Of a stretch of 30,237 nt of DNA, positions 16,365-29,757 are shown in pieces (within the stretch, counting starts at the first letter, position 1; every line of letters begins with the position of its first letter). The notes beneath the pieces are model-generated. The model was not told the origin of the DNA. It worked only from the letters and a program-made list of their open reading frames with translations, and searched no databases. Source of the stretch: a virus; IMG/VR virus record IMGVR_UViG_3300044680_000064, positions 73,632-103,868 of that record, one strand, 5' to 3'. A program made the position numbers and the translations under genes.

Positions 16365-16556
16365 ATGTCACAGCCGCGCGTCAACTACGCGCGCTGCCAA
16401 TGGTGCAGCGCGCGTCTTTCTTTCATCGGGATATTCGAATGCACCATCCCCAAGACTGGCGAGCGCGAAGATATGAAGATTCTTCAATGCGAGAAGTGCT
16501 TGCGAGGCGTGATCGTCAGGCCGGAAGACGTTGCGGTTGATTCGAGACGGGGATAG
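16365..16556 (+). CDS. Small zinc-ribbon protein
   Basis: 63 aa, with ATAGGACC just before the ATG. C11-x2-C14 and, about 30 residues later, C42-x2-C45 form a typical zinc ribbon, so it is probably a metal-stabilised adaptor or nucleic-acid-binding protein. It is the last + strand gene, and its 3' end overlaps the end of the RusA-like gene on the other strand by 41 bp. No terminator is obvious between the two converging blocks. Confidence 0.6.
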   Translation: MSQPRVNYARCQWCSARLSFIGIFECTIPKTGEREDMKILQCEKCLRGVIVRPEDVAVDSRRG

Positions 16557-19703: not shown

Positions 19704-20891
19704 CTAAGCTCCTTGTTTGCCTTGGATTTCATCGAGCGCCGAATGCACATTGTCGCAGTCGCGATCGCCAAGAGATTCAATCTTTGGCTGCTCCTTCTGC
19801 TCTTCGCCCATGACGCCAGCCTGAATCATGGCCGAGGTCAGGTCTGCGGCCGTGATCTTTTCCTTGACGATACGGTTGTGCAATCCCTTTTGCGCGAAGG
19901 TGCGTTCGGCCTTCTTGCCTTTCGCCGGCTTGTCCGTCGCCGCCGGCTCGACGTGCTGAGTCTCCACGGGCTTGCCCGCACCAAACAAATCCGAGTTGTC
20001 CTGCGTCTGCGGCGGTTCCTGTTGCGCCGCTGCCTCCTGAACTGGCGTTGCGACCGTCTCCGGATCTTTGGGCGTTTCCTGCCGTTGCTCCTGCTGAGGC
20101 TCGTCCTGACGCTCCTGGACGGCCTCCGGCTGTGGCGATGGCTTATATGGCGTCTTGAAGCTGGTTCGCCCGACCGGAAGAGGCTCCGCTCGCGCCGTGG
20201 CCGCTTGCACCTGGCTGACGGCCGATTCGGCATCCTCGATAATGTCCTCCAGATACATGCCGCCGAGAGAATTCGGGAAGGCATGGCGCAATGCTTGCGC
20301 CTGCGCTACCTTGGCGATCATTCGGAATGGATTCGTCAGCCACACGCCGAATGGCTTCATGTAGTTCCGCAGATTCACGCGTGCTACGGAATGGTGCTCG
20401 ATACCCTTCTGGTACACTCGGCACCAACCGCCAAGTATGGTGTCGTTCGGCATCGTGAATTCGCCTTCAACGTCGATGACCTCATCGCCGCGCTGGACGA
20501 TCACGCCATATTCCATGCCGTTATAGCGCGGATGGACCTCCGCCCGCTTGATGAGAGCCTGGACGGCGGTGATGAGCGAGAACTCCGGGCCGTCCTTTGT
20601 GTCGTAGCCGACGATGTAGGCGTCGCCGATCCACGGGTTGAGCCCGCGGGACTGGCAGAGCATACAAAAACGAATGGCCTGAATGTCATCGCAAATCTTC
20701 CCCTGCTTGGTCGGCTTGCAGAGGAACTTCTTGACGAGAACGGGCGAGAGCTTGATCGGCTTCTCTTCTTGGAACGGCACGAATTCGACGGCCTTGTCGG
20801 GCAAGCCTTCCAGCCACGCATTGGCGTCGAACGATGGCCGCTCTGCCGCCTTGGCTTCGGTCGTCACGGTCGTCTTGTTTTGCGGGTTCAT
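19704..20891 (-). CDS. Bet/RecT-family single-strand annealing protein
   Basis: 395 aa, with GGAG 7 nt before the ATG. Residues about 45-125 carry the Bet signature: VKKFLCKPTKQGKICDDIQA, then FCMLCQSRGLNPWIGDAYIVGY and FSLITAVQALIKRA, which correspond to the conserved core of phage lambda Bet and related RecT proteins. RMIAKVAQAQALRHAFPNSL at about 209-228 is the second conserved segment. The C-terminal 150 residues are a Gln/Glu/Pro-rich low-complexity tail of unusual length. Such proteins bind single strands made by an exonuclease and anneal homologous strands. It overlaps the exonuclease gene by ATGA, the classic exonuclease-annealing pair. Confidence 0.85.
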   Translation of the reverse strand: MNPQNKTTVTTEAKAAERPSFDANAWLEGLPDKAVEFVPFQEEKPIKLSPVLVKKFLCKPTKQGKICDDIQAIRFCMLCQSRGLNPWIGDAYIVGYDTKDGPEFSLITAVQALIKRAEVHPRYNGMEYGVIVQRGDEVIDVEGEFTMPNDTILGGWCRVYQKGIEHHSVARVNLRNYMKPFGVWLTNPFRMIAKVAQAQALRHAFPNSLGGMYLEDIIEDAESAVSQVQAATARAEPLPVGRTSFKTPYKPSPQPEAVQERQDEPQQEQRQETPKDPETVATPVQEAAAQQEPPQTQDNSDLFGAGKPVETQHVEPAATDKPAKGKKAERTFAQKGLHNRIVKEKITAADLTSAMIQAGVMGEEQKEQPKIESLGDRDCDNVHSALDEIQGKQGA

Positions 20892-21967
20892 TTTTTTGCT
20901 CCGATCTTGAGGACTTCGACGGTCTCTTCGGTCAACGCATTGGACTGTTCAAGCCGGCTCACGAGAGCCTTAAACGCGAGTCCCTTTTTACCGTGCGGCG
21001 TCTTCGCGGCGATGGCCTGCTCAACCTGTTTTTTGCTAATGGACAGTAGTCCATCAACTGTATCTTGCCCAAGTTCGTCCTGCAAGACGACTTTTGCCTT
21101 TTTGTAGTCGATCGGCCGTCGCGTCTGCTCTTCGATGTAGAGAGCCCCATACTTGCCGCCACGTGCCGCTGTCTCGGTACGCAGCGTTTCGATGAGTCGC
21201 TCGCAATCGGTCTTGAGCTGTCGCGCCTTATCGAGCACGTCGCCGGCTGACTCTTCGTCGATCCTGCCGGTGGATGACAGCCACGAATACGACGCGATTT
21301 GCGTCTTGCGGGCCTCGCACTCGAATACCCGCGGGCAGAACTTGCAATGCGGGCCGGTGACGTATTCTTGCGTAGTTTTCAGGTGCTTGCAGAGCCAAGC
21401 CCACCAATCCGCGAGCTGGTCGTGATCCAGCACTTCCAGCGTTTCGGCCGTTCCGGAGCGGACCTTGATGATGGACACTCGAACGGTTTCGACTTCCGGA
21501 TAGAGATTCATTACCAGTAGCGCGTAGCCCTTGAGTTGGTGCTCGAAGTCATAATCGCCGAACCCGGACTTCCAATCTGGGATTCTGGCTTCCGTTCCCA
21601 CGACGGAAACCAAGTCAGGATGGCCAGTCAATTCGACGCCAGCCAAGTCATCGACAAAATTCATGCCCTCCTCGACAATCGGATTCGGGAAGCTATTCCG
21701 CAACTCGTCTTTCCACAACACCGTTCCACGAGCCACGAGCTTTGCCAGTTCGTCGCGCTCGACCTGCCACTTGTCGGCGCATAGGTACGGATCAATTGCC
21801 TCCGGACCACCGCATTCCCAGTTTTTGATGCGTGCGGCCATGACCTCATGAAACGCGGAGCCAAGGTCGGCGTAGTCTCGCGGCGTGCCGATCTTGACCA
21901 GCGGCTCGATGGAGCTCGCGGCGCATGCGGCAAGTCTCGGTAAACTTGAGCAACGGATAGAGATCAT
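20888..21967 (-). CDS. PD-(D/E)XK exonuclease with Cas4-like cysteine cluster
   Basis: 359 aa, with GGAG 8 nt before the ATG. H40 in LGSAFHEVM, D118 in TGHPDLV, D131-W-K133 in IPDWKSG and Q144 in HQLKGYALLVM are the conserved residues of RecB/Cas4-like nucleases. C208-x2-C211-x5-C217, together with an N-terminal cysteine (C15 or C6), matches the four-cysteine iron-sulfur cluster of Cas4 and AddB. It should resect double-stranded DNA ends to give single strands for the annealing protein. Residues about 250-359 are a helical C-terminal extension of unknown role. It is coupled to the annealing protein gene by ATGA. Confidence 0.8.
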   Translation of the reverse strand: MISIRCSSLPRLAACAASSIEPLVKIGTPRDYADLGSAFHEVMAARIKNWECGGPEAIDPYLCADKWQVERDELAKLVARGTVLWKDELRNSFPNPIVEEGMNFVDDLAGVELTGHPDLVSVVGTEARIPDWKSGFGDYDFEHQLKGYALLVMNLYPEVETVRVSIIKVRSGTAETLEVLDHDQLADWWAWLCKHLKTTQEYVTGPHCKFCPRVFECEARKTQIASYSWLSSTGRIDEESAGDVLDKARQLKTDCERLIETLRTETAARGGKYGALYIEEQTRRPIDYKKAKVVLQDELGQDTVDGLLSISKKQVEQAIAAKTPHGKKGLAFKALVSRLEQSNALTEETVEVLKIGAKK

Positions 21968-21972
21968 GAGTT

Positions 21973-22128
21973 TTACTCCGTGACTTCTTTGAGGATAGCT
22001 CTCGTTCGTTCGACCAAATTAACGTATTTGCACCCGGCGTGATGCTCTTTCTGGTCGCGCCATTGATCGGCATCGTTGGCACAGTAAGGACAGTAGCGAT
22101 TCTCGGCAGCGTCCGAATCTCTGATCCG
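21973..22128 (-). pseudogene. Zinc-finger ORF without a canonical start (broken or unusual start)
   Basis: The frame is open from 22128 to a TAA at 21973-21975, 5 bp before the exonuclease ATG. It encodes RYCPYCANDADQW and EHHAGCKYVNLVE segments, i.e. C-P-Y-C followed by H-H-x2-G-C, a convincing zinc finger with a charged helical tail. No ATG, GTG or TTG exists in the open part. Directly upstream, in frame, is a TGA at 22129-22131, and beyond it an ATG at 22155. The possible explanations are an ATC start at 22123-22125, a nonsense mutation, a frameshift from one of two overlapping short frames, or stop readthrough. The rest of the window uses TGA as an ordinary stop. The motif is seen; which explanation applies is open. 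Confidence 0.45.
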
Positions 22129-22168
22129 TCAAATTTTTCCAGGCTGGCATAGCATGAGCCCATCAAGC

Positions 22169-22262
22169 AAAACAGCCGCCGCCCCCGGCGTAACCCTGCC
22201 AGGAGCGATGCGCGAGAGCGACGGCTGTTTCGATTGTTATTCATGCTGCGGTCCTGGCAGGG
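22169..22262 (-). promoter_or_regulatory. Interleaved inverted repeats in the leader of the recombination operon
   Basis: In + coordinates: arm A 22170-22182 pairs with A' 22218-22230 (AAACAGCCG with CGGCTGTTT, then one mismatch and three more pairs). Arm B 22194-22204 (CCCTGCCAGGA) pairs perfectly over 11 bp with B' 22252-22262. The order is A-B-A'-B', so the two stems are interleaved: they can exclude each other or form a pseudoknot. On the - strand transcript, B' comes first and the A'-A stem comes last, followed by a TTTT run, a terminator-like arrangement. B and B' are also each near-palindromes (CCTG-x-CAGG), so paired protein operators are an alternative. A short Arg-rich ORF (ATG at 22244, AGGA 7 nt upstream) covers the first part of the element. 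Confidence 0.6.
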
Positions 22263-22270
22263 ACAGATTT

Positions 22271-22300
22271 AATTTACAAAACTACCTGCTTGATCGTCAA
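22271..22300 (-). promoter_or_regulatory. Sigma70-type promoter for the recombination operon
   Basis: On the - strand, TTGACG (5 of 6 consensus bases) at 22300-22295 is followed after 18 bp by TAAATT (4 of 6) at 22276-22271. The -35 box contains the TGA stop of the upstream ATPase gene. The expected start is near 22264, so the RNA would begin 2 bases before the B' arm of the interleaved repeats. The promoter would serve the zinc-finger ORF, exonuclease, annealing protein and genes to the resolvase. Visual match only. Confidence 0.5.
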
Positions 22301-23832
22301 GACTGACTGTTGACAATTTCTGCACGAAGCTCCCCGTCTGCGGCCTCGGCGGTATACACGAGAATGCCCTTTTCCTCCGCCCAAAGCGCAACCTTTTTTT
22401 TGTTGCCTGGATCGAGTTGCTCGTAGCAGTACTGCTCCAATGTCAGCTCCCCCAATTGGTCGCCTTGACGTTCGAAGGCCGCGCCAGCGATTGCAAGCGA
22501 GAGCATCGTTCTCTCTCCTGGGCTGAGGTCTGAGAATAGCGTCTTCGGCCCGCGCTCGCTCGGCGTCACGAGCCGCATCTTCTCGTTCACCTGCTCGATT
22601 GCCAGCGGCACGCCGCTCTTGGCCACGATGTCGGACAGTACGCGATCGGTTGCCTTGGCTGCGTCGCGGAATCGTTCGCTTTCTCTCTGGTGCTTCTCGC
22701 CTTCGATTTTGTACTGCTCGCCCAGTTTCTTCTGGCGCAGAGCATCTTCGATCACGCCGCCCATCTTGACGGCTCGCGTGGCGTTGTTGACGGCCGCTTG
22801 TGCGTTGGCGATGTCGTCGGCGGTGATGACGGACATGGTGCGAGCGTTGTCGTCGTTTATGGTCTGCTGCCACGAACGAATTGTTTTTTCGTGCTGTTCA
22901 GCCGCGGCCAGTTTCTGGATTTCGCGCTGAGCAATGTAGGTTTGTCGTTCCACCTGCTGCTTTGACAAGTCTCGTTTCTTCTGGGCGGCAATCACCTCAG
23001 TTTCAGCCGCTGCGAGCTCGTCTTCGAGAAGATGCAACAACTTCGTTTCCTCGAAAACGATCTTGCCAGCATCAGTGACGGTCGGACCAGTGTATTCGGC
23101 TTCTGCCTTCTGCAAGCGGAACTTCGCCAGCTCGATTTGCTCCGCGTGCTGCTTCGCCGCTTTCTGCTCCGATTCCAGCCGCTGCTTGTGCGCCACCGCG
23201 TCCGTTAGCCGCGTCTGGAGTGATGCGCTGTCGTGTTCGCCAGAGGTGTCGATTCCCTCGATCGCCTGCCGTGCGGCCTCGTGACGCGCCAAGAGATTCT
23301 TCGCCTCGTCGCCTTCCTTGCGGGCCTGCTGCTCCAAGGCCCGCTTAACGCGACTCGCCATGACCAAAATGTCGTCGGTGTCTTTGGCCGCAGGCCCGAC
23401 GTGTTTGTCGAACTCGGCAGCCCCGCCGCAGATTTCGTAAAAGAGCGATGGATCGGCAGTCGGGTATAGCAGGCTGATAATGGCCTTGATGCGCTTGGCG
23501 TCGGCCGCTTCCGGGTCGTCGATGCCTGGATCGATCAAGCTGCTGACCGAAAGCCGGCTCTCCAATGAATAGACGGTCGCTTCGCCACGAATCTGCGATT
23601 TGCGAGAGACAAGAAGAGTAACGCCAAAACCGTCGAATCGAGCTTCTCGCTCCCCGTCCTTGATCGGCACTTTCAGGTCTTTCTTGCCGGTCACGGCGCG
23701 GCCAAGAACATTGAGAGCATGGCTTTTACCAGAGCCATTATGACCTCTCAGCACACACAATCCGCCCCTCTCCGGAATCGGAATTCGGAGCGTGGCGATT
23801 GGACCGACGTTGGTAATAACTGCTTCATTCAT
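22297..23832 (-). CDS. SMC/Rad50-like AAA ATPase
   Basis: 511 aa, with AGGGG 7 nt before the ATG. Walker A is G30-H-N-G-S-G-K-S37. Residues about 145-390 are a long charged heptad-rich coiled coil with a likely turn near the middle. LSPGERTMLSLAIA from about 436 is the ABC signature. The usual Walker B hhhhDE is not obvious: the expected place reads LTLEQYCYEQLDP. Rad50/SbcC-like proteins bind DNA ends, tether them and control a nuclease. No SbcD-like nuclease is next to it, so its partner could be the Cas4-like exonuclease two genes downstream. It has its own promoter. A defect in Walker B would point to a structural or regulatory role. Confidence 0.7.
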   Translation of the reverse strand: MNEAVITNVGPIATLRIPIPERGGLCVLRGHNGSGKSHALNVLGRAVTGKKDLKVPIKDGEREARFDGFGVTLLVSRKSQIRGEATVYSLESRLSVSSLIDPGIDDPEAADAKRIKAIISLLYPTADPSLFYEICGGAAEFDKHVGPAAKDTDDILVMASRVKRALEQQARKEGDEAKNLLARHEAARQAIEGIDTSGEHDSASLQTRLTDAVAHKQRLESEQKAAKQHAEQIELAKFRLQKAEAEYTGPTVTDAGKIVFEETKLLHLLEDELAAAETEVIAAQKKRDLSKQQVERQTYIAQREIQKLAAAEQHEKTIRSWQQTINDDNARTMSVITADDIANAQAAVNNATRAVKMGGVIEDALRQKKLGEQYKIEGEKHQRESERFRDAAKATDRVLSDIVAKSGVPLAIEQVNEKMRLVTPSERGPKTLFSDLSPGERTMLSLAIAGAAFERQGDQLGELTLEQYCYEQLDPGNKKKVALWAEEKGILVYTAEAADGELRAEIVNSQS

Positions 23833-26830: not shown

Positions 26831-26861
26831 ATAAAAAAGGCGGCGCCACAAGCACGCCGCC
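26831..26861 (-). terminator. Rho-independent terminator
   Basis: On the - strand a 7-bp all-GC stem (CGCCGCC/GGCGGCG, + positions 26839-26845 with 26855-26861) has a 9-nt loop and is followed by TTTTTTAT. It lies just after the stop of the gene ending at 26873. The next gene starts 16 bp further on with its own ribosome site. Confidence 0.75.
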
Positions 26862-26872
26862 ACGGGGGAAGA

Positions 26873-27290: not shown

Positions 27291-27313
27291 ATGAGCGGCC
27301 AGCGAGCAGCCGC
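27291..27313 (-). terminator. Weak terminator-like hairpin
   Basis: A 5-bp GC stem (+ positions 27295-27299 with 27309-27313) with a 9-nt loop is followed on the - strand by TCATTTTATTT. It sits just after the stop of the gene ending at 27329. The stem is short, so it may only partly terminate, but its sequence is largely shared with the stronger hairpin 453 bp away. Confidence 0.5.
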
Positions 27314-27328
27314 CACGGGGGAAGACAA

Positions 27329-29723: not shown

Positions 29724-29757
29724 GAAAACGCGCGACCGGCCATCCTAGCCGGTCGCG
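29724..29757 (-). terminator. Rho-independent terminator
   Basis: A perfect 10-bp stem (CGCGACCGGC at 29731-29740 with its complement at 29748-29757) has a 7-nt loop and, on the - strand, is followed by CGTTTTC. It lies about 20 bp after the stop of the gene ending at 29778. Part of the stem could also work for + strand transcripts, but no + strand gene ends here. Confidence 0.7.

Follow-up and report, generated by a model that had tools for sequence, protein, structure and literature searches.

The structures described in transcript leaders include the ompA-type stem-loops, simple hairpins which act as mRNA stabilizers, and the leader pseudoknot of T4 gene 32, whose stems are short. This pseudoknot lies in the leader of the gene for a single-strand DNA-binding recombination protein, and cooperative binding, nucleated at the gp32 site, covers an A+U-rich ribosome site (PMC3014915). 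T4 gene 32 has been reviewed as possibly the sole viral example of such autoregulation (PMC3014915). Phage HK022 carries two antiterminator RNAs in its genome, putL and putR, which are located at early promoters and need no peptide; putL follows its promoter closely, and pairing in it begins at base A3 of the transcript (PMC9378689). A literature search of limited reach returned no 5′ UTR pseudoknot leaders in phage early genes. Likewise, no regulatory RNA of a planctomycete phage appeared in the literature searched, and such phages have barely been studied.

The locus described here, E1, is found in a window of 30,237 nucleotides that forms the final 30 kb of a 103,868-base virus record (IMGVR_UViG_3300044680_000064). 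It belongs to a minus-strand, early-type block comprising an ATPase, E1 itself, an exonuclease, RecT, a sigma-like protein and a DNA methyltransferase. Upstream of the leader is an ABC/SbcC-like ATPase gene (22297-23832, minus strand; weak PF00005), and downstream of it the recombination operon begins with a PD-(D/E)XK exonuclease (20888-21967, minus strand; Pfam PF12705, PHROG 69), followed by a RecT single-strand annealing protein (19704-20891, minus strand; Pfam PF03837). The reading that we tentatively favor, with a probability of roughly 0.4, is that E1 is a cis-acting 5′ leader RNA of the recombination operon, promoter-attached and pseudoknot-capable, and that the same design is present at a second locus of this phage, E2.

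The virus is an unclassified phage whose host is probably a Gemmata-type planctomycete (Gemmatales), since a repeat-companion domain typical of these planctomycetes occurs in a protein whose best matches are mostly in planctomycete genomes, and whole-genome relatives of the exonuclease occur only in two Gemmatales genomes. No exonuclease relative was found in 392 genomes sampled across the planctomycete phylum. The same tandem repeat unit, CGGCGTCCACCCGGCAGCGCGAAAGTCGCT, is present at both contig ends (genome 1-150 and 103800-103868, the latter being the end of the window), so the record probably closes or breaks within a repeat-coding gene. The large terminase subunit (genome 42316-45123; L004:2316-5123) has an apparent intein interruption (CFVAGTLVETKSG...VLVHNC), and a search with TerL gave distant matches only. 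Two tRNA-like genes lie on the minus strand at L003:16561-16635 and 16376-16446; one has the anticodon CUA, of the amber suppressor type, and the other a short anticodon loop, UUUUAA, which resembles a UUA suppressor minus one base. TAG remains a stop codon in some large ORFs of the phage.

E1 begins with a promoter-like sequence, TTGACG-18-TAAATT, on the minus strand at 22271-22300 (TTGACG 22300-22295, TAAATT 22276-22271), with 9 of 12 matches. As the preliminary description of this DNA had pointed out, the TGA codon that ends the upstream ATPase gene falls within the -35 box. Sites with 9 of 12 matches are about as frequent as chance would give (10 against an expected 6.4); the adjacency of promoter and arm at E1 has a local-shuffle P of 0.01 and a genome base rate of 0.0034. 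Four arms follow on the minus transcript in the order B′, A′, B, A (22262-22168), each at the position originally given. Arm B′ (CCCTGCCAGGA, 22252-22262), the 5′ strand of stem S1, lies about 8-9 nt beyond the end of the -10 box and starts at about +3 of the expected transcript; it includes the AGGA that had earlier been taken for a ribosome site. Next come arm A′ (CGAAACAGCCGUCGCUCUCG, 22213-22232), the 5′ strand of S2, then arm B (TCCTGGCAGGG, 22194-22204), the 3′ strand of S1, and finally the terminator-like arm A (CGGGGGCGGCGGCUGUUUUG, 22168-22187), the 3′ strand of S2. The 11-bp B′-B helix is perfect, as had been claimed (22262-22252 with 22204-22194). Arms A′ and A pair at 12 of 13 positions over 22230-22218/22170-22182, and here the helix proved longer than described: when G-U pairs are counted, helix A has 20 contiguous pairs (22232-22213/22168-22187) and three outer ones.

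The nested minimum-energy hairpin spans 22151-22247 on the minus strand and includes an outer 7-bp stem, AGCAUGA/UCAUGCU, in which 22247-22241 is paired with 22151-22157. The minimum free energy of the 117 nt from 22266 to 22150 is -57 kcal/mol, against -42.4 +/- 3.4 for shuffles (z -4.3), and none of 200 shuffles reaches it. The phage has other long hairpins, among which helix A is about the seventh strongest distinct one over the 104 kb. With helix A fixed, 0.035% of shuffles contain an exact helix of at least 11 bp between the upstream flank and the helix A loop (P 3.5e-4). The 24-nt arms of helix A have five non-Watson-Crick positions, four of which are G-U on the minus transcript only (binomial P 0.003); these four would be A·C on the opposite strand, and taken by itself the hairpin gains 14 kcal/mol on the minus transcript relative to that strand. 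This strand specificity favors selection of helix A as minus-strand RNA over selection as DNA. The helix A sequence does not recur elsewhere in the phage genome, so that a sequence repeat was rejected, and E1 has no Rfam match at the gathering cut-off, only chance matches with E of 2-9.

A genome-wide scan uncovered E2, a second promoter-attached interleaved inverted repeat, on the minus strand at genome 35694-35612 (region 35590-35730, L003:15590-15730). Its promoter, TTGACA-17-TACTAT, is one of only seven genomic sites with at least 10 of 12 matches and is better than that of E1. The -10 box is followed by about 7-8 nt, CCGGGGAGT, about 20 nt, GCCGGCCGCGACC, 11 nt, ACTCCCCGG, 8 nt and GGTCGCGGCCGGC, which gives the order S1-S2-S1′-S2′ and then a gene. 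The order of parts at E1 is identical, and the first loop, L1, is about 20 nt in both. The ATG of the gene lies 22 nt downstream of E2; the product is a 58-aa acidic protein (L003:15413-15589, minus strand) with a codon score of +0.39, like that of real phage genes. The 7-nt distance from promoter to arm has a local-shuffle P of 0.0005, and the opposite strands of E1 and E2 have nothing comparable in promoter-to-arm adjacency. The two elements are alike in layout only, with no alignable or local sequence similarity (P 0.2). Another promoter, at genome 25821, has a weak interleaved pair and was rejected as antisense to a gene. Since the same design, with unrelated letters, stands at a second phage promoter, the element is probably a real RNA control element. 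Of the earlier proposal, the promoter-proximal structured region is supported, and it probably acts as RNA; the E2 layout argues that the arrangement is real.

The same comparison bears on a DNA-level interpretation, also raised in the preliminary description, in which a dimeric repressor would recognize two CCTGSCAGG dyads, one forming the core of B′ (+3) and the other that of B (+61). Each B arm is an odd palindrome of 9 bp, and the genome has CCTGSCAGG nowhere else. A general operator was rejected, however, as there are no copies at other promoters, and the centers of the dyads are 58 bp or 5.5 turns apart, whereas at E2 the arms are unrelated and the spacing is 53 bp, half a helical turn away. 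With the G-U pairs of helix A lying on one strand as well, such an operator pair is quite improbable.

Interleaved exact helices in which both arms are at least 9 bp number two in the phage, E1 and E2, against 0.2 expected per genome-sized shuffle; both pairs also reach 20 bp summed. Natural controls were 822 kb of phage and planctomycete DNA. By arm length (at least 9 bp each and 20 bp summed) they contain two such pairs in all, both in phiCbK (67% GC), compared with two in the 104-kb phage, and natural DNA of 53-58% GC contains none in 423 kb. By stacking energy, E1 and E2 are the strongest two interleaved pairs in the phage genome; in the 822 kb of controls, 12 interleaved pairs reach a summed stacking of -42 or lower (about 1.5 per 104 kb), mostly in GC-richer sequence. 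These controls weaken the energy significance (0 of 200 shuffles), and weight was therefore put on the GC-matched arm-length counts and on promoter adjacency. Rarity by arm length offers moderate support; a stronger argument, even if spotted post hoc, comes from promoter adjacency. A fixed-size descriptor search, which found E2 and missed E1, was too rigid and was left out of the evidence.

Pseudoknot-free prefix folding predicts the same succession at both elements: S1 has a probability near 1 after its second arm emerges, and S2 takes over within 4-8 nt of being completed itself. At E1, B′-B has P>0.99 with the RNA 3′ end at 22194-22178, and helix A has P of 0.81 with the end at 22170 and 0.98 at 22166. 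The modeled handover from S1 to S2 falls at 22174-22170, which is the U-tract, in agreement with the initial suggestion that B′-B is an alternative to A. That the arms could also coexist as a pseudoknot is supported by a simple H-type model (Turner stacks, a 9.6 kcal/mol penalty and minimum loop lengths), which is rough and ignores threading constraints. It places the pseudoknot at -52.4 kcal/mol and the nested fold at -48.5 kcal/mol for E1, and at -47.4 and -33.1 kcal/mol, respectively, for E2; the predicted gains are 4 and 14 kcal/mol, with 0 of 300 shuffles as good in each case. From sequence and the rough model, E1 would have an S1 of 10 bp, an S2 of 19 bp and loops of 20/10/7 nt, and E2 stems of 9 and 13 bp and loops of 20/11/8 nt, lengths compatible with an H-type fold, the match of L2 and L3 between E1 and E2 being partly set by the choice of stem trimming. 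Stems of more than one turn must thread, and the free 5′ end, at which S1 starts, would ease this step here.

A sharp modeled handover exactly at the U-tract, a promoter upstream and a terminator-like arm A are also what an attenuator proper would display, with S1 delaying S2 until a protein, ribosome or RNA signal decides between terminator A and readthrough into exo-recT. We regard this as unlikely: E2 has the same layout without a U-tract, and the Arg-rich ORF that overlaps the leader is not coding-like. This ORF had been described as short and as a possible source of a peptide or lambda N-like factor, but it runs 132 codons into the exonuclease gene, with no stop before or in the structure. 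Its leader part scores -0.50 bits/codon versus +0.34 for the exonuclease, a codon usage unlike that of phage genes, and the Arg-rich leader peptide was rejected. Moreover, B′-B shares no base with A′ or A, so that their exclusion is topological only and the arms do not constitute a classical mutually exclusive antiterminator. A second, Cys-rich reading frame (...ENRYCPYCANDADQWRDQKEHHAGC...; 21973-22128, minus strand) ends just before the exonuclease start. It contains the motif CPYC...HHAGC, has a codon score of +0.22 (-0.01 and -0.55 in the other two frames) and shows weak similarity to Lar-like proteins, and is probably the gene of a small zinc-binding protein. It has no in-frame ATG, GTG or TTG start; a frameshift, an unusual start or an assembly error is possible.

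Conservation of the arms in related genomes was looked for and no related leader at all was found. Searches with the exonuclease, RecT, ATPase and DUF5131 in viral contigs, with the exonuclease in genome contigs and with the leader DNA in phages returned nothing close, and the viral, phage and Gemmatales collections hold no homologous leader. Consequently, there is no covariation within a family, and the leader is known from one genome. It is absent upstream of exo in three distant exonuclease relatives (Gemmatales L049 and L050; viral contig L051). In L049, a csrA gene (L049:6708-6865) is located directly upstream of the exonuclease. The B-arm pattern had four matches in viral contigs, which were rejected as chance-like, inside coding DNA and without promoter or A-arm context. 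The Gemmatales locus L050 encodes homologous exo, recT and a probable ATPase, and between recT and the ATPase it has a stem, AAGCAGCCGCCGGC/GCCGGCGGCTGCTT, followed by TTTCTTTTTT. This hairpin (L050 9167-9250) is a long-loop terminator with a long U-tract, and its stem is similar in sequence to helix A.

The Gemmatales operon thus lends support to the view that helix A is a plain operon-internal intrinsic terminator after the ATPase, with B′ due to chance or without consequence and the recombination genes expressed by readthrough or from an unseen promoter. Helix A is a GC-rich stem followed by UUUU, and by a simple score it ranks ninth among the terminator-like sites of the genome. The early operon also has intergenic hairpins with T-runs at 29757, 27314 and 26861; two T-run hairpins, 26856-26870 and 27309-27323 on the minus strand, share the start TTCCCCCGTGGCGGC, which is found at genome 7307 as well with 2 mismatches. 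The TTCCCCCGTGGCGGC terminators consist of the hairpin, the T-run and then the ribosome site of the next gene. The terminator-like character of arm A, proposed from the outset, holds for the stem and the presence of TTTT, but the TTTT lies within arm A with GCTTG next (CUUG follows the arm itself), which would make it a moderate terminator, and its T score is moderate as well. The clear terminators of this phage have T5 to T8. E1 further differs from an intrinsic terminator in that its long loop holds arm B, its U-tract is weak and B′ is at the expected transcript start, and from the other early hairpins in that a promoter-like site precedes it and the upstream stop is 60 nt away. A plain terminator would leave both B′-B (P 3.5e-4 given A) and E2 unexplained, and on the whole we consider it doubtful, even though helix A may, by analogy, also terminate at E1. 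As E2 has no U-tract, the function shared by E1 and E2 is probably not termination. The promoter-like site, the compact structure and the terminator-like end would fit yet another product, a small noncoding RNA that would run for about 100 nt from 22264 to around 22165, end at hairpin A and act elsewhere. This is very unlikely, given that the sister element E2 leads into a gene 22 nt downstream without a terminator and that there is no Rfam relation.

If E1 is instead a cis-acting leader, as we favor, transcription would start about 2 nt before arm B′ and S1 (B′-B, 10-11 bp) would form at the extreme 5′ end as the RNA emerges. After a further 30 nt or so, the longer S2 (A′-A) would form and either take the place of S1 or combine with it into an H-type pseudoknot, and the same design would be reused at the E2 promoter with unrelated stem letters. 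The shared task would act on the nascent or finished transcript: most likely, folding of the 5′ end would control RNA polymerase passage or mRNA decay. At E1, S2 ending in UUUU could also terminate a fraction of transcripts before exo-recT.

Among the described systems, HK022 put would be the closest functional analog, since there, too, the phage genome has an RNA element at each of two promoters, in an operon context. However, put consists of consecutive stem-loops with a triplex and its copies share sequence, whereas E1 and E2 are interleaved and share no stems, and membership is not claimed. Nor is it claimed for the T4 gene 32 leader, which would be the closest pseudoknot analog and from which E1 and E2 differ in their 10-19 bp stems and 5′-terminal position, and E1 also in the additional reading frame before exo. 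E1 and E2 resemble the ompA type in having a helix within a few nt of the 5′ end, but differ from it in that a second helix interleaves with this one. It is conceivable, if somewhat doubtful, that the two copies represent a new class of phage cis-RNA, a 5′-terminal pseudoknot leader on selected promoters in which layout and not sequence is kept, and which would tune polymerase passage or mRNA lifetime without a peptide. If the reading is true, two leaders that agree in fold topology but share none of their stem sequence would be a clear case of shape-conserved RNA architecture, and E1 and E2 may offer a small test system for the formation of interleaved helices at the 5′ end during transcription. 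Should the element indeed modify RNA polymerase or block decay without a protein factor, it would be a rare example beside HK022 put.
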